This document shows, piece after piece, positions 54,105 through 64,000 of a stretch of DNA of 64,000 bases (its first letter is position 1; the number at the start of each line of letters is the position of its first letter). The notes beneath the pieces were generated by a model. The model did not search any database. It saw only the letters and a list, made by a program, of their open reading frames with translations, and had not been told where the DNA came from. Both the position numbers and the translations under genes were made by a program. The stretch lies in contig PAAG01000059.1 in assembly GCA_002698785.1 (NCBI GenBank), positions 248,001-312,000 on the forward strand, given 5' to 3'. This DNA is from Verrucomicrobiales bacterium (GTDB lineage: Bacteria > Verrucomicrobiota > Verrucomicrobiia > Verrucomicrobiales > DEV007).

Positions 54105-54683
54105 TCAGCCGCTAACAGCGGTTTCGGCGATCTCCACTTCCGTCGCCCCTTTCCCCACGCTCTGGACAAATTGGTAGAGCCGCTCCATTTGCTGAAGAAG
54201 ATTGAAGCCCTTCTCCTGAGCCAGGATTTTTATCCCGGGAATCAATTCATGCTGACCAAACGCAAACTCCCGGATGTCGATCATTCCACAATAATATTGC
54301 CGCTCAGTGTCTCGATGCCGAATCAGTTCCAAATAGCAATAACCGGGAAACTGCCCGTTGATGGTCGCATCATAGTCCAGAAACTTAAACGGTCCTCCTC
54401 CTCGCGTCGGCTGGGCATCACCGAACTTGACCCAGTAATCGTACGCAAACAAATGCCCGTGAGTTTTTATCACACCCTGCATTTGGCTCAAGGGGCGACT
54501 CAAGGCTTCCAGATTAGCCACCTGGTTCTTGGAGAATAACTGCGCTAACTCTTTCGAGCCCGGCAGCATCCGCTGCTGCCCGATCAAAACCGCCCAATCC
54601 CTTTGAAGAAGATAAAGAGAGTGCACCTCGGTACCGATGCGGATCGAGCAAAGCAGCTTTTCCTCTCCCATTGTTTGCGGCAT
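54105..54683 (-). CDS. Hypothetical protein of 192 residues
   Basis: A soluble-looking protein without signal peptide or membrane helix. Contains TEVHSLYLLQRDWAVLIGQQRMLPG near the start and a beta-rich middle (PFKFLDYDATINGQFPGYCYLELIRH). An acceptable ribosome site (AGGA, about 10 nt before ATG 54683) supports this start; ATG 54671 is four codons on. No family is recognised and its neighbours do not suggest a role. Confidence 0.55.
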   Translation of the reverse strand: MPQTMGEEKLLCSIRIGTEVHSLYLLQRDWAVLIGQQRMLPGSKELAQLFSKNQVANLEALSRPLSQMQGVIKTHGHLFAYDYWVKFGDAQPTRGGGPFKFLDYDATINGQFPGYCYLELIRHRDTERQYYCGMIDIREFAFGQHELIPGIKILAQEKGFNLLQQMERLYQFVQSVGKGATEVEIAETAVSG

Positions 54684-56424: not shown

Positions 56425-58116
56425 CTATTGCTGAACTGGTGTGAAATCCGAAGGCTGTTCTTCTTCTGACCCATCTTCGGGTTTTACATCAGCAGATTCG
56501 GCACCGGACTCCTCGTCAACCTCTTCCGTCTCCCAGACACTTTTCAACTCCTCGTGCAATTGGCTTTCCCACTCGTCCGGCTTTCGCGAATCGACCCATA
56601 CAACAGTTTTATACGCAGCGTCGGTTAATGTAATGTCAGGAGCTGCCCCTACGATGAAGTCACCACCCTTGTCTTCGTCGATATGCGTGACGACCGTTGT
56701 AAGCCAGAAAAATCGACGTTCCCCCGCGATGTCACGAATGAAGGGTCTCTGCTCCGCAGCACTGTTTCGGGACCAGTCGTAGTTTTTCCGACTCTCCATG
56801 ACCTTCGATACTATCGCGGAAACTCCTGTCAGCACCTGCTCTTTTTCATAGTGCCGATACACCAACGAATCACCCTGCCCATCAGCAGGAACAAGAAGAC
56901 TTGTATTCAAGCCCTGCTTATCTTCCTGGAATGGCTCAAGGGCAAAATAGTGATAAAGGCTAGCACTCTCGCCTGTTTCAAAATATCCCGTAAACGGCTG
57001 ATCGTTGAAATCGCCCGGTAGATCAGGAATCCGAATATCCCCTCTGTGGTAGCCCGGCATCGGGGAGAGAAAGCCCTGGCTGAAACGATAACTCTGCGCA
57101 GTAAAACGAGACACCTTTTCCGGAAGTACATTCTGATTCGTGAGGAACTCATGCTTTCCAATCTCACCCGGTGGTATCCATTCTCCCGCTCCCATAACCA
57201 TGCTTTTGAACACACGATCAACACCTGCACCTTGATCAATGATCACAACACCACCAAAAACGGGTCTTGGCAGGAAGAACCCTTTCCACCTCACCAGCGA
57301 AACCATCTGCACCCACTCATCATCGTCATTTCGTATGTAGCGAACCTGAACCGGCTCATAATTCATAAACCTCCAGGGATTCAAACCATTGATGACAGCC
57401 GTTCGGGTATTCCTCGCGGCAAACATTCCTTCACTGGAAAAGAACTCGACCTCATAGCGGTTCTCTCCCGAAAAGTTTAACGCCACCTTGTCGGCCGGTA
57501 CGCTGATGACCTCCTCTACTTTTCCGGTCAACTTTCGCACAGCAAACGCGGGCTCGATTGCCATGGACCATACATAGTCATCCCCAACGCGAACGAACTC
57601 GGGCGCGGAGACTTCCTGCACATCGGAAATGCCCTCCCTCGCCAGCGTTTGAACCGCATTGCGGGGGTGAATCCGTTCGTATTTTGTCAGGGGCAATTCC
57701 TCTAACTGCCGATGTGGATGACTCTTGTAGTGATAGTAGAGCGCAAGGTAGTGCCGAATACCTGTGTGTGGGGAGAACGCCAGAATTCCGAAGACCAGGC
57801 TCAGGATCATAACAATGGCTCCTTCAAGGTACTTCTTCTTGGCCCACACCGCACTTCCCGCTAGAAGCCCTAACAGGGCGATTAAAATCGGGGCAAAATA
57901 CAGCCGTGTCGTGATGGCAAAAGGCTGCAACCAGGCACGGAACAAATACGCCAGGACAACCAGGATAAGAAGAATCAGCAGGAACTTCAATTTGTGCCGC
58001 AGGGCGAAACGCTTGATAGCCCCCACAATATTTCGGGTCAGCCAATACAACTTACTTCCCCAACTCGACTCAGGGATTTCCGGCAGTGGCTTTTTCTCGG
58101 CAGGGCTCTTAGGCAT
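56425..58116 (-). CDS. Large membrane protein of the AAA operon, unknown function
   Basis: A 563-residue protein with three N-terminal membrane helices (about 43-59, 74-92, 97-115) and a soluble beta-rich domain from about 120 to 510. An acidic tail ends it (EEVDEESGAESADVKPEDGSEEE is within the last 50 residues). No family is recognised. It follows the smaller membrane protein by 5 nt and closes this operon as seen here; the convergent sulfatase gene ends 12 nt away. Its position suggests a membrane anchor or channel-like subunit, but this is inference only. Confidence 0.68.
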   Translation of the reverse strand: MPKSPAEKKPLPEIPESSWGSKLYWLTRNIVGAIKRFALRHKLKFLLILLILVVLAYLFRAWLQPFAITTRLYFAPILIALLGLLAGSAVWAKKKYLEGAIVMILSLVFGILAFSPHTGIRHYLALYYHYKSHPHRQLEELPLTKYERIHPRNAVQTLAREGISDVQEVSAPEFVRVGDDYVWSMAIEPAFAVRKLTGKVEEVISVPADKVALNFSGENRYEVEFFSSEGMFAARNTRTAVINGLNPWRFMNYEPVQVRYIRNDDDEWVQMVSLVRWKGFFLPRPVFGGVVIIDQGAGVDRVFKSMVMGAGEWIPPGEIGKHEFLTNQNVLPEKVSRFTAQSYRFSQGFLSPMPGYHRGDIRIPDLPGDFNDQPFTGYFETGESASLYHYFALEPFQEDKQGLNTSLLVPADGQGDSLVYRHYEKEQVLTGVSAIVSKVMESRKNYDWSRNSAAEQRPFIRDIAGERRFFWLTTVVTHIDEDKGGDFIVGAAPDITLTDAAYKTVVWVDSRKPDEWESQLHEELKSVWETEEVDEESGAESADVKPEDGSEEEQPSDFTPVQQ

Positions 58117-58121
58117 GGAAT

Positions 58122-58682
58122 TTAGTGTTTGTCCGTGTAACGGCGCATCATGTCACGTGGATCGTCGGAATCATCGTCTTTTGCCGGCTCGGTTGTTTCC
58201 TTCTCTTCAGGCTTTTCCGCTGGTTCTTCGGATTCCACGACCTCCTTCTTCGGCTCAGACACGACATCGGCCGAAGCTGTTTTTTCACTCTTCGCATTGA
58301 TCTCGTCCAACGCATCATACATCTCGTTCCGCCCTCTCCACAATCTGTATGCCCAGGGACCGATGAGGAATCCCACCATAGTCATGGGGACTTCGACGAT
58401 CCAGAGGATAAGTTCGACAAGAAGGTTGATTGTCTCCAGGGAAAACAGAGCCGCTACCGTCTGCAAGGTAGACAGCAAAGTCGCCATCATGACTTTGTTC
58501 CTCGTCTTCCTGTTGTAAATGAATCCCGCCTCGACGTCGGAAGGCAGCGGATCCTTGTGCGTTAGATTGAACCACACTCGATACCACTTCACCCCAAATC
58601 GCCGGTCGATCACATACCAGAAGGCACCGAGCAGGACGAAGAAGATCATCCAAAAGGTGATGTACGAAGTTAAACTACTCAT
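58122..58682 (-). CDS. Small membrane protein of the AAA operon
   Basis: 186 residues: one helix near the N-terminus (ITFWMIFFVLLGAFWYVI, about 8-25), further hydrophobic segments around 66-110 (MATLLSTLQTVAALFSL, LVELILWIVEVPMTMVGFLIGPW), then a charged tail (about 125-186) rich in Glu, Lys and Pro that ends DPRDMMRRYTDKH. No family recognised. Gaps of 21 nt to the gene before it and 5 nt to the one after make it part of one operon. The tail could be a docking site for a soluble partner. Confidence 0.7.
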   Translation of the reverse strand: MSSLTSYITFWMIFFVLLGAFWYVIDRRFGVKWYRVWFNLTHKDPLPSDVEAGFIYNRKTRNKVMMATLLSTLQTVAALFSLETINLLVELILWIVEVPMTMVGFLIGPWAYRLWRGRNEMYDALDEINAKSEKTASADVVSEPKKEVVESEEPAEKPEEKETTEPAKDDDSDDPRDMMRRYTDKH

Positions 58683-58703
58683 GGTTTATTATTGGGTCGG
58701 GAT

Positions 58704-59975
58704 TTAAAATCGATCAGATTGCGGCAGTCCTCTGCTTTCGAGTTGGTGGATTGCCCACTTCCTTTGACCCGGCCCCCAGTTCTGGTAGAGCCGGTAAAAC
58801 TGTTGCTTGCTGTGACGAAACGTCATCTCCAAATCGAGCGGATTGATCAGGCTCAACAGCTGCCACACGATATCGGTGGTCAACGAATCGAGGCCCGGAG
58901 CAGGCACTAAGGTCGCCTCTTTCGCTGCAGTCGAAAGCCGCAACTTGGGAGGACGAGCCTCGATATCGATCAATCGTTTCAATTCATACAGCTCCTTGTA
59001 ATAGTCCGGGAGAAATTCCTGCGCAGACACGAAGGCTCCTTTTCTTTGTGCCGCAGTCAGTGTTCCCAGGTCCTCCCGAAAGCCCGAATCGTATATGGCT
59101 CTCGTCTGCAGTGCCTCGATTACAATTGAAAGTCTGCGGTTTCTGTCTTCTTCCGACAGACCAGTGAGACGCCGAACCAAACCGGCTTCTTCCAGCATTT
59201 TCAAAACCACGGAAGGTTCCTCTTTGAGAGAGTAAAGATCGTGCCTCCCATTGGGATCTTTCGCCATCTCTCCTGACTCAGCGATCAAAATCGGCTTCTC
59301 CCTTTTGGGACAACTCCGAAAGACAAATATGCCTCCCATCGCTCTGGTGTAGAAATTATTCACTTCGTCAAAAGGCGCTTCCGGGATAAAAAGCGCCTGA
59401 TGGCGTAGATCGCCGTTCTCCCTCGCGGAGGATACTAACTTCTCAACGAGCACGCGATTAGAATAGGCGTCTTCCTCGTGCCGAAATCGTGCGACAAGCT
59501 CCCTCTGTTCTCTTGTCTTTCGCATGATGTGTCCCGGCGTGGACGGCCGGACCACGATGGAATGCAACATGAGCAAATCGAACGGGCTGTGATACGCATC
59601 AATTCCCTGGTCGATATCAAGAATGACACCGCTGATTCCAGTAAGGTTGTGGAGAGCTCTCCGGTGATCCGTGTGAATGGAATCAAGAATCTTCCAATCA
59701 AAAGAGTGCATGGGCATATACACCGGTTTGCCCTTTTGCTCGGGAGTGAGCAGCACGGCGTAAAGATTCGCCTCACCATGACACAGATAATTGGGATCAT
59801 TTCTCTCCGCTGCGATCTGCGGACTCCACCCCGCACCATCAATCGCAAAGCGCTTTCGCTCTGTGGGCTCTTTCCCGATGGCTTTCAGGCAATCATTGTA
59901 ACGATCCACCAACAGCGGAGTAGTCACCGGCACTAAACCGGCACCAAAAAAACCTCGCTCTTGTAGAATCTTCAT
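58704..59975 (-). CDS. Conserved-looking protein of the AAA operon, unknown function
   Basis: 423 residues, no signal or membrane helix. Begins MKILQERGFFGAGLVPVTTP, a hydrophobic N-terminal segment, with later RHEEDAYSNRVLVEKLVSSAREN and VNNFYTRAMGGIFVFRSCP. From memory the start recalls an uncharacterised family I know as DUF6638, also seen next to AAA ATPases, but I cannot confirm this. Start could be the ATG at 59975 or the GTG immediately before it (59978). It lies 16-19 nt after the AAA gene. Confidence 0.65.
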   Translation of the reverse strand: MKILQERGFFGAGLVPVTTPLLVDRYNDCLKAIGKEPTERKRFAIDGAGWSPQIAAERNDPNYLCHGEANLYAVLLTPEQKGKPVYMPMHSFDWKILDSIHTDHRRALHNLTGISGVILDIDQGIDAYHSPFDLLMLHSIVVRPSTPGHIMRKTREQRELVARFRHEEDAYSNRVLVEKLVSSARENGDLRHQALFIPEAPFDEVNNFYTRAMGGIFVFRSCPKREKPILIAESGEMAKDPNGRHDLYSLKEEPSVVLKMLEEAGLVRRLTGLSEEDRNRRLSIVIEALQTRAIYDSGFREDLGTLTAAQRKGAFVSAQEFLPDYYKELYELKRLIDIEARPPKLRLSTAAKEATLVPAPGLDSLTTDIVWQLLSLINPLDLEMTFRHSKQQFYRLYQNWGPGQRKWAIHQLESRGLPQSDRF

Positions 59976-59994
59976 CACTAAAATCAGTTCTCAG

Positions 59995-61938
59995 TTAGTC
60001 CCTCAAAAACCGCTTCTCTGCTTCCGAACGGCAATCCAGTTCAAAGAGCATATTCGAAATCTTCCGCTCACGATCTTGATTGAGAATACGAGACAGGTTG
60101 TTGCAATATTTTACTGCCTCCCGCCAACGCAAGTCAGCAAAAGAGAGGCCTTTCATGTTTCCTCGCATAAGGTCCTTGAGCATTTCGACTTTTGTTTCGT
60201 AGTCCCTGTAAAAAAAGATCTCCGCGTCCTCAAACCACTCATCAGGCATATCGAAATCATTGAGGCGATTGTTCACTGCCTGCTGAATATTCCGCACGTC
60301 CCGGGAAGAAAATGTGGGATAGAGATCCAAAACTCGCTGGAAGAAGAGGGCAAAAAAGTCGTGCTCATCTCTTTCCTTCAAATTGAGCAACTCTTCGACC
60401 GAGCCACGAAGGCGATCATCCTCCAACTGAGGCTCCTCCTTTTCCACCACAGAAAGATCAGACACATCCGCCTGCGAACTCAGATACTCGTAGTCTCTCG
60501 GATCTTTGAGATTCACCACTTTCCCATCAATCTCCCGAATCCCTCTCCACCAAAGGTGATCCTGATCGAGAAAATCTTCCCGCGAATCAGCTCCGTCGAT
60601 GGGAAACCGTGCCTGAACTCGAGACAGCACAGCTTTATCCAGTTGTTCCGGAAGATTGGTAAAGAACTCCACCACGGTATTCCCACGCTTAATGGCATAG
60701 GCACCTTCCGTGTATCGTAGAAAGACTCCAATCACTTCGCGGACACCGGCAGACACTCCCTCTCGACTCCGATCCTCGAAGCAATTCTCCGCATCGTCCA
60801 TTGGAGCATAGACGATCTTGTCGTCATCCTGGAGACGACGCATGAACTCGATCATTCGCTCTGCACTGCCTCCCTGAAACGTAGATACGATATTATCAGG
60901 AAGCGGCCAAAACATAAAAGGCAAACCAAGCCACTCGCAATAGTCGCTCATTTTTGTGGCAGTGGCAGCAATCTGCATGCTCTTACCCGTCCCCGGCTTT
61001 CCATAGCCCATGCGAACCAGGGGAAGGCCTCCAATCTCCAGAAATGGATTCTTCTTCGCTGCCAGATCGTAGCAGACCAGACGCTGCGCGAGACGTCTTG
61101 CCGCATGCTTCGCAGCGCGGTTCCCAACGATATCCTTGAACTCCAGACGATTGAACTCAATTCGCGCTACCGAAACATCCGGCAGTTCATCGAATCCGGA
61201 CAGCATGAACTCGCTGTCTTCCAGCCGATAGCGGTTCTTATCGAAAAACTCTGTATGTTTGAGCGAATCTCTCCGCTCTCTAACCCCGTTGATGAGCTGC
61301 TCGACCCACAATTGGGCAAACCGATACAGGTCATGACCATCGCGAAGCCCCGACTTCGAAGCAAGGTATCCAAAGTGGAAAACCGCACATTCCAGAGACT
61401 TCAGCGGATTTGATAAATCGATCTCCGGGATAGAAGGGCTAGTGATCTGTCGGCTCGCCGTTTCTTCTTCTTCCTTTCTTCCGAGCAACCAGTGAACAAA
61501 TGCCCCGAAAGAATAGAGAGCTATCGCGGCAGACGTGTGATGCTTCTCAAAAAACTCAGCTTTTTGTGCAGAGGAAAGCTGACCGGCACGGTTCTGAGCC
61601 ACCAATCGCTCCAATCCGCCTGCCTGGCCATATGCCTGTGCCAGGTGCATACCAATGCACAATCCATCGCGGAGCGAGTGCATGACAGAATTCACCTGAT
61701 CGGTCAAAAGGAGAGCATCCTCACTCACCATCTTCGCAAACTTGGTCACACTGGTGTGCTCGAGCCCCATGCTTCCATAAGCAGTACTGGGCCTCCACTT
61801 GCCAGAGCCATCATCTTTGGGAACATCTTGCTTCGTGTGTTTCCAACTCGACTTGATCAAGAACTGGTTCGCCCGGTCCCGATACTTGTCCAGATCACCC
61901 GGGCTTATTGGAATAGTAGAAGATATCTTAGTAGACAT
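59995..61938 (-). CDS. Classic AAA-type ATPase with pore-loop-like segment
   Basis: 647 residues. Residues 1-260 are a helical region of unknown fold. The AAA module covers about 265-450: Walker A G313-K-P-G-T-G-K-S320, a Vps4/katanin/FtsH-like pore loop (S-T-F354-Q-G-G-S-A-E, 352-360), Walker B V376-Y-A-P-M-D-D382, sensor 1 T427-N428, and a possible arginine finger in LSR440VQARF. The Walker B ends Asp-Asp where the catalytic Glu is expected. Residues about 490-647 form a helical C-terminal region. Such ATPases pull on or remodel a protein partner through a central pore. The genes before and after it are 24 and about 16 nt away. Confidence 0.85.
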   Translation of the reverse strand: MSTKISSTIPISPGDLDKYRDRANQFLIKSSWKHTKQDVPKDDGSGKWRPSTAYGSMGLEHTSVTKFAKMVSEDALLLTDQVNSVMHSLRDGLCIGMHLAQAYGQAGGLERLVAQNRAGQLSSAQKAEFFEKHHTSAAIALYSFGAFVHWLLGRKEEEETASRQITSPSIPEIDLSNPLKSLECAVFHFGYLASKSGLRDGHDLYRFAQLWVEQLINGVRERRDSLKHTEFFDKNRYRLEDSEFMLSGFDELPDVSVARIEFNRLEFKDIVGNRAAKHAARRLAQRLVCYDLAAKKNPFLEIGGLPLVRMGYGKPGTGKSMQIAATATKMSDYCEWLGLPFMFWPLPDNIVSTFQGGSAERMIEFMRRLQDDDKIVYAPMDDAENCFEDRSREGVSAGVREVIGVFLRYTEGAYAIKRGNTVVEFFTNLPEQLDKAVLSRVQARFPIDGADSREDFLDQDHLWWRGIREIDGKVVNLKDPRDYEYLSSQADVSDLSVVEKEEPQLEDDRLRGSVEELLNLKERDEHDFFALFFQRVLDLYPTFSSRDVRNIQQAVNNRLNDFDMPDEWFEDAEIFFYRDYETKVEMLKDLMRGNMKGLSFADLRWREAVKYCNNLSRILNQDRERKISNMLFELDCRSEAEKRFLRD

Positions 61939-61962
61939 GTTAGTAAATTCTCAATTGGCTGT

Positions 61963-63084
61963 CTAAACTTCAAAGAGTGAGCCGTCTCCCTCAAAGGCGT
62001 AACGGACGGCTTTCTCATACCCCTTCAGCCAGCGGGGATTCTTTTCTGCAAATGTTGTCTGCCAGAGATGGTGCGGCATGAAGAGATACCGCTTCACGTC
62101 GGATAGTTTCCGATCGAAACACTCCGGATCGTCGTGAGGGACCTCGAAAACCTCCTGCAATGTGTCGGGCAGCAGCAACCATCCTCGTTCCTTCACCACT
62201 TGGCGTGAAGACACGATCACCTCGCACTCCATGGAAAACAGGACATCGTCGGGATCGCCAGATCGGCGGAGAAACTTCGCCAGATCACAATCGTCAAAAC
62301 TGAATCGAGTCGAAAGTATCGGACCGAGCCGCAACCGACGAATCGCCTTCGGATGTACGGATGCCAGTTCCCGATCCAACTCGGTAGCGAAAACCGCCAG
62401 AGGAGCGATACGGCGGCCAAGCCTCTCGATCGTCTCTCTTAACTCATTATACGGACTACTCCCCTTCATCATGGGCGAATCGTCCGAATCCTGGTCGAAC
62501 TCCAGCCAGGTCAGGTAGATGAGATTGTCTTCGGTATTGTAACAGGCCCAGGAACAAACGTAACGACGGTTGAACCGACTACCGGAATGCTGCTTCACTT
62601 CTCCGAAGCAGAACGCTCCCATAAACTCCTGCTCAAGGAGAGCTTCGAGATACTTTCTACGGCCGAGATTTTCGAGCATTGCCAGCGGAGTTGTGTTCTC
62701 ATTGAAAACAACGTCGAGAGCTTCTTCGATAAGGATGGGGCGTGGCGGAATTCGCTTCAGAGTGTCTTCGGCATGTTCAGCATCATTTTCCAGCCGAACG
62801 ATCTCGTTCAAATGTGGAAAACCGGACTCGTTCAGGTCGAGCTTCATCCGGTCATCTACGTCGACAAGATATTTCAGCCGCAACAATTCGATGCTCTGGA
62901 GAATGCGGTTTCCGAATAATCCGATGCACTCGCCTTCCGGAGAGGAACTTCCTATCTCCGACTCAGACCAGTTACGGAGCACTTCGCACACCCGACGCAT
63001 CTGGTCGAAGTAGATGCGATAGTGCTCCTCGTCCGGCAGGGATACGTAATCCCCGCTGGCGGTCAACTGAACGACATTTTCCAT
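61963..63084 (-). CDS. Unknown protein of the AAA operon
   Basis: A 373-residue soluble protein. It has a polar helical first half (YFDQMRRVCEVLRNWSE, LENDAEHAEDTLKRI) and a mixed second half (RRYVCSWACYNTEDNLIYLTWLEFDQ; FMPHHLWQTTFAEKNPRWLKGYEKAVRYAF). No motif of a known enzyme is seen. The start has an excellent ribosome binding site (GGGAGGGA, 4-11 nt upstream), unusual here, so it is well supported as a gene. It lies 20 nt after the coiled-coil gene and 24 nt before the AAA gene. It may be an adaptor for the ATPase, which is inference. Confidence 0.7.
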   Translation of the reverse strand: MENVVQLTASGDYVSLPDEEHYRIYFDQMRRVCEVLRNWSESEIGSSSPEGECIGLFGNRILQSIELLRLKYLVDVDDRMKLDLNESGFPHLNEIVRLENDAEHAEDTLKRIPPRPILIEEALDVVFNENTTPLAMLENLGRRKYLEALLEQEFMGAFCFGEVKQHSGSRFNRRYVCSWACYNTEDNLIYLTWLEFDQDSDDSPMMKGSSPYNELRETIERLGRRIAPLAVFATELDRELASVHPKAIRRLRLGPILSTRFSFDDCDLAKFLRRSGDPDDVLFSMECEVIVSSRQVVKERGWLLLPDTLQEVFEVPHDDPECFDRKLSDVKRYLFMPHHLWQTTFAEKNPRWLKGYEKAVRYAFEGDGSLFEV

Positions 63085-63104
63085 CGAGTCCCTCCCTTAT
63101 CCGA

Positions 63105-63998
63105 TCACTGGGACTCAGTGGAACCTTCGTCTTCCGTATAAGTAAAGAACGACGAATCCAATGGATCGATGTTGTACTTATCCCGAAACTGTGCCAGAGC
63201 TTCATGCTCCCGCTCGCGAATACGAGCCTGAGCTTCTGCTTGAGCAGCGCGAGCTTCTTCGATCTTCTTGATCCGCTCTGGCTGGCTTTCCACCATCTCC
63301 ATACGGCGACGATCAGAAGCAGATCCTACCTTTGCCATGAAATCCACATTGCTCTTGTCGATCGCTGTTCCAAGGTTGTCGAGATTCTGAGCCACATCCT
63401 GGTCGCTCATCGCCTTCATTGCTTCCAAACGGCTGCGGAAGGTAACGAGACGCTCTTCCGTGTCAGACTTGAGCAAAGTGATCCATGCATCCTGGTTGTC
63501 GCGCAGCTTCATCTGGCTCTTTTCATGCACATCGAGTTCGGCGGCAAACCGCTCCTTCGACTGGAAAAGAACCAGAGCCTGATTCCGACGACCGCGAATT
63601 TCTTCCACCTTCTTCCGAAGAGCCGAGATGTCCTTCTCTGCAGCAACATACTCTGGCGAACCATTCACCATGGTATCAAGTTCTGCCTCACGAGACTGCA
63701 ATTCGCCTTCTGACTCATTCAGTTCGGCATCGAGTTTCTCCAGGAGTTCAGCAGCCTGCTCTTTCACCCGGAAAGCCTCACTCTTACGATTACTCACCGA
63801 CTCGAGCTGCTTCTGCACTTCCTTGCGGCGCTCTTCCATGATCTCGATGGTCTTTTCCACCTTGAACATGAACTGCTGCAGGCTCTCTTCGATAGAAGCC
63901 TTCATCAGCCGATCTCGAGCCATCTTTTTGACCCGGATTTGAGCTGTTTCGACACCCGTCTGTGCTTTCTCCAGACCAGCACGTGCTTCACGAAGAGC
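63105..63998 (-). CDS. Long coiled-coil protein of the AAA operon, 5' end outside the window
   Basis: The frame is open to the right edge, so only the C-terminal 297 residues or so are seen. Almost the whole visible chain is predicted alpha-helical coiled coil (EESLQQFMFKVEKTIEIMEERR, LLEKLDAELNESEGELQSREAEL, EEARAAQAEAQARIREREHEAL), with a short acidic end (FTYTEDEGSTESQ). No globular domain is visible. Membrane-binding coiled-coil families such as PspA/Vipp1 or ESCRT-III are possible, but I could not align it convincingly. As first visible gene of the operon it is the most likely partner of the AAA protein. Confidence 0.75.
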   Translation of the reverse strand, partial: ALREARAGLEKAQTGVETAQIRVKKMARDRLMKASIEESLQQFMFKVEKTIEIMEERRKEVQKQLESVSNRKSEAFRVKEQAAELLEKLDAELNESEGELQSREAELDTMVNGSPEYVAAEKDISALRKKVEEIRGRRNQALVLFQSKERFAAELDVHEKSQMKLRDNQDAWITLLKSDTEERLVTFRSRLEAMKAMSDQDVAQNLDNLGTAIDKSNVDFMAKVGSASDRRRMEMVESQPERIKKIEEARAAQAEAQARIREREHEALAQFRDKYNIDPLDSSFFTYTEDEGSTESQ

Positions 63999-64000
63999 CT

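Follow-up and report, generated by a model that had tools for sequence, protein, structure and literature searches.

We describe a six-gene operon on the minus strand at the right edge of a 64,000-nucleotide stretch (hereafter, the window) of contig PAAG01000059.1 from a Verrucomicrobiales bacterium. Four of its genes, which encode a coiled-coil protein (COIL), a soluble protein (G2), a classic AAA ATPase (AAA), and a member of the DUF6638 family, form a core that is well supported as a real co-inherited unit, and their linkage is established. The remaining two genes encode a small and a large membrane protein (SMALL and BIG). The reading that we prefer, to which we give a probability of roughly 40%, is that the operon encodes one AAA machine, anchored in the membrane, by which COIL is remodelled; its probable context is the protection of the envelope or conflict with phages.

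A scan of GTDB genomes with an alignment of the AAA protein returned at least 502 relatives among at least 590 pattern matches. The 80 best-scoring loci of these relatives, mostly from Rhodobacterales, were kept; adding the window and five loci from plasmids gave a set of 86 loci that all carry the AAA gene; genes in the loci were called by a simple open reading frame (ORF) script and membrane helices by a hydropathy window. COIL, G2, AAA, and DUF6638 are found in the same order and on the same strand in 79 of the 86 loci, and in four further ones (L013, L025, L055, and L089) the missing core part falls where the contig or the locus ends. A first-pass annotation of this DNA had tied its idea of a single system to the neighbors being kept together in other genomes, and this linkage is indeed conserved. 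The order spans at least two phyla and the trees of the core proteins are congruent, which refutes, at the level of gene linkage, the explanation that the genes are unrelated neighbors or an assembly artefact; nothing was found in its favor, and we regard it as practically eliminated.

In the trees of all four core proteins, the window, Pelagicoccus, and a metagenome-assembled genome (MAG) labelled Doudnabacteria were grouped with a support of 1.0; locus L013, from a same-genus relative of the window, also falls inside this group in the DUF6638 tree. The distance matrices of COIL, G2, AAA, and DUF6638 agree (Spearman 0.94-0.96). When the proteins were searched against plasmid records, relatives of DUF6638 and AAA were found in the same ten records (four of Sinorhizobium, four of Vibrio, one each of Shinella and Rhizobium). 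For pairs of loci with AAA identities of 75-80%, the mean identity was 79% for COIL, 67% for G2, and 65% for DUF6638, a comparison that, like that of the inserts below, covers 20 loci, nearly all from Ruegeria or close to it, with pairs that share loci and are not independent. By pairwise identity, conservation between related genomes is highest in COIL and AAA. The core proteins are not obvious duplicates, because profile comparison of G2 gave 0.3% with DUF6638 and 0.1% with AAA. The AAA gene of the same-genus relative, on a small MAG contig, is split into two overlapping frames (L013:809-2757), by decay or assembly error, and the contig binned as Candidatus Doudnabacteria (L015), whose operon is of the verrucomicrobial type (AAA identity 43%), is likely misbinned.

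The core set is mainly alphaproteobacterial and occurs once on the contig of a giant bacterial virus. DUF6638 was detected in 1 of 240 genomes of the window's phylum, namely its own, and AAA in 2 of the 74 genomes of its family, its own and one of the same genus. The phylum of Ruegeria has the core set in 26 of 398 genomes (those bearing DUF6638). OmpA domains were present in 8/8 core-bearing genomes searched. Within a sample of 80 genomes, TelA (PF05816) was over its cut-off in 6/6 that bear DUF6638 and in 7/74 others, whereas only 2/8 bearers picked through their loci had it; its co-occurrence with DUF6638 may just follow lineage.

The viral copy lies on IMG/VR contig IMGVR_UViG_3300035698_035310 (359,044 bp), where a DUF2333-like gene, COIL, G2, AAA, and DUF6638 are encoded on one strand (L136:3502-10986). 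The match of the DUF2333-like gene is at 3.9e-13, about 0.9 kb of small ORFs separate G2 from AAA, and the AAA protein shares 49% identity with its counterpart in a Hellea MAG. We take the contig to be that of a jumbo phage because of other genes on it: away from the core, it encodes rIIA, rIIB, an NAD synthetase-like protein, and an anti-restriction protein, and near the core, an exonuclease, a peptide deformylase, and an Rz-like protein (weak, 1.2e-4). There are 58 named phage records with a match to the exonuclease, at about 34%, and nine of the ten listed are 310-353 kb in size, e.g., 121Q and PBECO4. Neither the phage contig nor the Vibrio record yielded a terminase of family PF03237. A second viral scan led to the same contig and to no other; among named phages, the window AAA had no match and the phage-borne AAA only partial matches to the AAA domain.

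The AAA protein of the window (59995-61938, minus strand; 647 aa) has a single classic AAA domain (Pfam match at residues 312-446) after a long N-terminal region, in which no named domain was found in the window, Sinorhizobium meliloti, or Vibrio members. Its Walker A motif GYGKPGTGKS (60979-61008; residues 311-320), its pore-loop-1 segment STFQGGSAER (60856-60885; residues 352-361), its Walker B motif with D381 and D382 (60787-60813; residues 376-384), and R440 and R444 of the second region of homology, after sensor-1 N428 (60607-60621), are all encoded on the minus strand. Across 40 sequences, G311, G313, and P315-K319 of Walker A are invariant, as are both Asp of Walker B, N428, R440, R444, and Q355 and G356 of the pore loop, which reads F/Y-Q-G (consensus S-Y-Q-G-K-S). 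We presume the roles of N428 as sensor-1 and of R440/R444 in the second region of homology. Walker B motifs usually have Asp-Glu. The first-pass annotation had seen a classic AAA with an F-Q-G-G-S-A-E segment, with which the motifs and the PF00004 match agree. With Walker A, Walker B (D-D for D-E), a sensor-1 Asn, paired arginines, an aromatic-x-G pore loop, and PF00004 over the cut-off, the protein is, by its sequence, a genuine classic AAA, with no subfamily assigned.

The best PDB profile matches that cover the AAA domain are proteasomal/Cdc48-VAT unfoldases (Rpt4, 38 bits, 6e-9; VAT, 37 bits; Cdc48), followed by Vps4 (29.5 bits, 2.7e-6). Since the nearest solved AAA domains are of this unfoldase type, the operon could encode a membrane-protein quality-control or assembly machine, in which AAA would extract or fold clients at the membrane and COIL would be a scaffold; the occurrence of three non-related membrane modules (see below) would fit as well. 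However, the operon AAA differs from these unfoldases in its single AAA domain and its N-terminal region, a Pfam scan of the window operon proteins listed no protease family at E<=1 (nor a nucleotidyltransferase (cyclase) or HORMA family), leaving AAA without a protease partner in the operon, and the patchy distribution speaks against housekeeping. We consider a quality-control role improbable.

COIL, the first gene of the operon, occupies 63105 to 64000 of the window on the minus strand and runs on to 64421. It encodes an all-helical coiled-coil protein of 438 aa, about 80 residues longer than the proteobacterial COILs, mostly by an insertion at about residues 109-155 plus smaller ones. The AlphaFold 2 (AF2) model is all helix, with a mean pLDDT of 75 that is best at about residues 221-280, and has predicted helices at residues 3-23, 29-44, 49-99, 103-128, 136-174, 177-250, 256-378, and 380-416; the long helices probably form a hairpin. 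Hydropathy revealed no hydrophobic stretch in COIL. Against PDB sequence profiles, only designed or generic coiled coils were matched (best 0.0029), and in NCBIfam the window-cut COIL matched generic coiled-coil proteins such as SMC (0.0043, sub-threshold). A kinship with TelA (PF05816), an idea reached by eye, was rejected, as hhalign gave 0.9% against nine TelA proteins, a set of low diversity.

A classic AAA with an aromatic pore loop beside a helical protein, in a membrane context, recalls Vps4/ESCRT-III (archaeal CdvB/C), and one explanation is that COIL is a true ESCRT-III/PspA-family protein and AAA a bacterial Vps4. It draws on the joint presence of AAA, coil, and membrane genes, on the Vps4 chains among the PDB matches, and on the lone NCBIfam match of AAA, to the archaeal Vps4 homologue CdvC (E 0.0063); moreover, passages of PMC11237479 report PspA/Snf7 genes beside AAA genes in some bacteria, in operons that likewise combine a coiled-coil gene, an AAA gene, and membrane genes. 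The AAAs are described there as VPS4-like or as double-AAA proteins with an inactive first copy, unlike the operon AAA, and these passages do not name DUF6638, DUF1523, or DUF2333. However, the CdvC match amounts to 15.5 bits for a cut-off of 650, Vps4 is not the best match of AAA, and the MIT family is absent at E<=1 in the three AAA members searched with Pfam (window, S. meliloti, and Vibrio). COIL was rejected as a PspA relative, since hhalign gave 11% (E 0.0026) against ten PspA proteins and 100% for the phage COIL by the same method. For the window COIL, Pfam listed no PspA_IM30 or Snf7 match at E<=10, and neither is among the 25 of 81 families listed in a scan of 42 COIL members. The core also has G2 and DUF6638 as extra members. 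Furthermore, the PspA role is not vacant, because the window's own genome has a separate PspA_IM30 gene outside the window (G000:C2:426939-427598, E 3.8e-13). True ESCRT-III membership is thus quite improbable. The likeness to ESCRT-III and Vps4 drawn in the first-pass annotation may still hold as an analogy of how the machine works; a specific kinship is unsupported by the AAA and COIL profiles.

The 50 rows that VIA listed for COIL include no chain of ESCRT-III, an absence that proves nothing. Ranks 1 and 2 are AhlC chains (Z 12.5 and 12.4; root-mean-square deviation (rmsd) 3.7 and 4.6; 207 and 221 residues aligned), and there is a weak Pfam match to HBL (E 0.027). COIL might accordingly be seen as a helical pore-former-like protein of the AhlC, MakA, or XaxA type, that is, a membrane-acting effector under AAA control. 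Such Z values are, however, commonly reached by helical models, and 12.5 is below the level deemed trustworthy for helical proteins; in addition, the COIL model had no Foldseek match at E<=1e-3 and the protein has no hydrophobic stretch. We find this explanation very hard to credit.

G2 (61963-63084, minus strand; 373 aa) is a soluble protein with a helical N-terminal and a beta-rich C-terminal part, and its AF2 model is confident (pLDDT 90, pTM 0.87). In VIA, 49 of the 50 rows listed are T-fold enzymes by name, aligned within residues 157-358 and mostly 169-333; the best Z is 8.3, with an rmsd of 3.4 over 105 residues, a weak though coherent signal. The names include urate oxidase, 6-pyruvoyl tetrahydropterin synthase, QueD, QueF-like, GTP cyclohydrolase I, and dihydroneopterin aldolase, enzymes which we take to share the T-fold. 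The G2 model had no Foldseek match at E<=1e-3, nor any at E<=1e-3 against viral structures, and G2 had nothing significant against PDB sequence profiles (best E 1.1). The C-terminal part of the model thus weakly resembles a T-fold. T-fold proteins form rings with a tunnel, and it is a speculation of ours that a ring-forming G2 would suit a AAA ring as its partner. The fourth core protein, DUF6638 (58704-59978, minus strand; 424 aa, GTG start), matches its Pfam family with 138 bits for a cut-off of 27 and had nothing significant against PDB sequence profiles (best E 0.37).

The core is accompanied by membrane proteins that differ between lineages. In the window, these are SMALL (58122-58682, minus strand; 186 aa), with three hydrophobic stretches by hydropathy and an acidic C-terminal tail, and BIG (56425-58116, minus strand; 563 aa), with three hydrophobic stretches within residues 36-113 by hydropathy and a remainder of about 440 residues that falls in no known family. 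Both are present in the window, Pelagicoccus, and the Doudnabacteria-labelled MAG, BIG having relatives that are 54% and 42% identical, and the contig of the same-genus relative (L013) stops inside SMALL. A DUF1523 protein is found in 66 of the 86 loci, of Rhodobacterales and others (58 of them also with a membrane protein of about 90 aa), and a DUF2333 protein in six, of Rhizobiales (L009, L010, L078, L083, L087, and L092); both were found by locus-built models, and the members tested match PF07509 and PF10095, respectively. Comparison of the three modules by hhalign, with few sequences, linked none of them to another (0.2, 2.2, and 1.1%); BIG showed no relation to DUF1523 (0.2%) or DUF2333 (2.2%) in a comparison with three BIG rows only and low power. 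BIG and DUF1523 had nothing significant against PDB sequence profiles (best E 3.7 and 0.44). In the phylum of Ruegeria, DUF1523 occurs in 16 of the 26 DUF6638 genomes and in 21 genomes without DUF6638. Since the modules differ by lineage and DUF1523 also occurs without DUF6638, we view the operons as a conserved soluble core joined to different membrane proteins. DUF1523 (PF07509), DUF2333 (PF10095), and DUF6638 (PF20343) are Pfam domains of unknown function, into which one core member and two membrane modules of relatives fall. DUF2333 is named as uncharacterized in a Pseudomonas type VI secretion system locus (PMC5256989), and a DUF1523 protein is listed in a proteomics table (PMC10783040), neither passage giving a function.

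In two Vibrio plasmids of 882 and 925 kb (L008:11097-14558 and L012:11097-14558), the gene that comes after the core is annotated as mfd (transcription-repair coupling factor) and takes the place of a membrane module. On pSymB of S. meliloti Ak57, AAA is separated from DUF6638 by an ISRm16 element and a DUF559 endonuclease-like gene (L009:9869-11614). Haloarchaeal plasmids also carry BIG relatives, in 5 records with identities of 22.6-31.3% and E values from 1e-7 to 2e-5; AAA or DUF6638 is not annotated beside them in three regions (L149, L150, and L151), for which the gene tables are incomplete.

In the proteobacterial operons, extra genes occupy hypervariable slots between members of the core. 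A gap of 150 nt or more was found between COIL and G2 in 33/82 loci, between G2 and AAA in 7/84, and between AAA and DUF6638 in 55/80. Inserts of fewer than 75 aa or filling less than 45% of the gap were left out, as were the inserts of loci L010 and L013; the 69 clear inserts that remain are 22 of 15 families (COIL|G2), 5 of 4 families (G2|AAA), and 42 of 28 families (AAA|DUF6638), of which 22/22, 2/5, and 27/42, respectively, have a membrane helix by hydropathy. About 61 of the 69 have no Pfam family. At E<=0.001, Pfam identified two Fic proteins, a single PIN, a single DUF4279, and a single cytochrome oxidase subunit IV-like protein, and Mrr-type nuclease models also match inserts, that of L072 being one (the Mrr assignment was made by eye). 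Examples from the two slots of alphaproteobacterial relatives (loci L022-L087) are L072:6160-6528, L072:9712-10587, L084:9680-10414, and L078:7139-7933; one looks HNH-like by eye.

Slot contents vary even where the operons are nearly identical. Among pairs with AAA proteins at least 95% identical, the AAA|DUF6638 inserts are unrelated in 84 of 90 pairs, related in 4, and absent in 2, and the COIL|G2 inserts are unrelated in 62 of 89, related in 2, one-sided in 23, and absent in 2. The contrast weakens at AAA identities of 85-90%, where 6 of 23 pairs have unrelated and 3 have related AAA|DUF6638 inserts. As a control with ordered pairs of the same loci, the downstream neighbor was recovered in 178/178 and the upstream neighbor in 90/178; the inserts were missing from the partner in 163/176 and 144/151 ordered pairs. 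The GC content at third codon positions (GC3) of the inserts is 0.53 (COIL|G2), 0.62 (G2|AAA), and 0.51 (AAA|DUF6638), against 0.74 for the AAA genes of these loci, so that the inserts look like recent arrivals.

Such slots full of unrelated low-GC3 genes raise the possibility that the operon is an anti-phage or inter-element defence system, in which the core would sense or be triggered and the relatives' variable short membrane proteins would be effectors or cargo. The hydrophobic helix in every COIL|G2 insert and the Fic, Mrr, and PIN proteins are in line with this, as are the PADLOC matches among the inserts to SoFic, PDC-S02, PDC-S04, and, weakly, a 2TM effector (0.0034). The PADLOC model of TRIP13 (CBASS type III) also matches 35 of 40 AAA members, with a best value of 1.1e-7, and that of IetA 8 of 40; the patchy occurrence in the window's family points in the same direction. 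Yet any classic AAA could give TRIP13/IetA matches, the window AAA has none at E<=0.001, and the nucleotidyltransferase, HORMA, or protease partners of those systems have no counterpart in the window operon. The best PADLOC match of the six window proteins is DruC to the window-cut COIL, at E 0.024. Besides, the window operon and many of its relatives have no insert, and the inserts, most of which have no Pfam family, could be passengers of a recombination hotspot. A defence system appears rather unlikely to us.

The membrane-anchored COIL-remodelling machine that we favor starts from what is observed, namely the gene order, the co-inheritance, the AAA motifs, the exchangeable membrane modules, the hypervariable slots of relatives, and the phage carriage; from these, we infer COIL as the substrate of AAA, G2 and DUF6638 as adaptors, a site at the membrane, and a role in conflict. 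COIL, with its long helices, probably in a hairpin, would be the structural partner. AAA, presumably a hexamer, may grip and pull COIL through its aromatic pore loop, by analogy with other AAA motors, and ATP-driven disassembly or rearrangement of COIL assemblies would take place at the inner membrane. G2 and DUF6638 may act as soluble adaptors or regulators of this remodelling, and the lineage-specific membrane module, here SMALL and BIG, would hold the machine at the inner membrane. The machine would likely serve to protect or remodel an envelope that is under attack, especially in phage-host conflict. A role at the meeting point of cells and phages, perhaps in protecting the envelope, is suggested by the jumbo phage with rII genes, the atypical slot genes, and the patchy distribution. 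A broader version, which we find doubtful, is that of a new ATP-driven machine composed of a motor, a coil polymer, a T-fold-like ring protein, and DUF6638, with interchangeable membrane modules and swap-in cargo, that is used by both sides of the phage-bacterium conflict, including the ~359-kb jumbo phage.

Several points weigh against this proposal. Locus L021 has neither COIL nor the first third of G2, L058 has no DUF6638, and L060 has AAA alone, with no core partner. No recognized membrane module is found in 10 of the 86 loci, which include two of Vibrio, one of R. leguminosarum, and several on contigs that are cut. Within the family of Ruegeria, 90 of 198 genomes have the core set, a frequency that would also suit an ordinary physiological role. 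The window's compact operon has no cargo slots, and no inserts are found in it, in Pelagicoccus, or in the MAG. Finally, the pulling of COIL through AAA is proposed by analogy, and COIL could be a scaffold instead of a substrate.

The pairing of AAA motors with helical polymers that remodel membranes is a central theme in cell biology, and a co-inherited bacterial set with similar kinds of parts, without demonstrated kinship, would test whether such a design has originated more than once. The set is widespread enough for study in harmless marine bacteria, and the phage copy and the hypervariable slots hint at a possible battleground between hosts and viruses. A AAA remodelling machine with a coil is of a known kind; the partner set is, as far as searched, new within the literature covered. 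Combined-term literature searches on the core set found none in the open-licence papers of PubMed Central (PMC), and DUF6638 is named by no open-licence PMC paper, although subscription journals or preprints may hold work on it.

The layout given in the first-pass annotation, six minus-strand genes with gaps of 5-24 nt, including a coiled-coil partner and two membrane proteins, is borne out by the ORF coordinates and by the helical nature of COIL and the hydrophobic stretches of SMALL and BIG. In transcription order, from COIL to BIG, the gaps are 20, 24, 16, 21, and 5 nt. Once the contig was extended to the right of the window, the full COIL gene (L002:9106-10422) was seen. Further genes beyond the edge had been envisaged; there are most likely none, and the operon most likely comprises six genes and ends at COIL, because the next long ORF upstream (L002:10678-11316), which by eye resembles a D-Ala-D-Ala dipeptidase, points the other way. 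A 132-aa minus-strand ORF with a GTG start (L002:10525-10923) that overlaps it is probably spurious. Pfam names only two of the six proteins, AAA (PF00004, E 3.5e-9) and DUF6638 (PF20343, E 5.4e-40); COIL, G2, SMALL, and BIG have no convincing Pfam match, and NCBIfam adds only sub-threshold matches for the operon proteins. Near the operon, a 192-aa ORF (54105-54683, minus strand) has no Pfam match at E<=1 and no NCBIfam match at E<=0.1. By GC content (0.514 for both values compared), the window operon shows no sign of a foreign origin.

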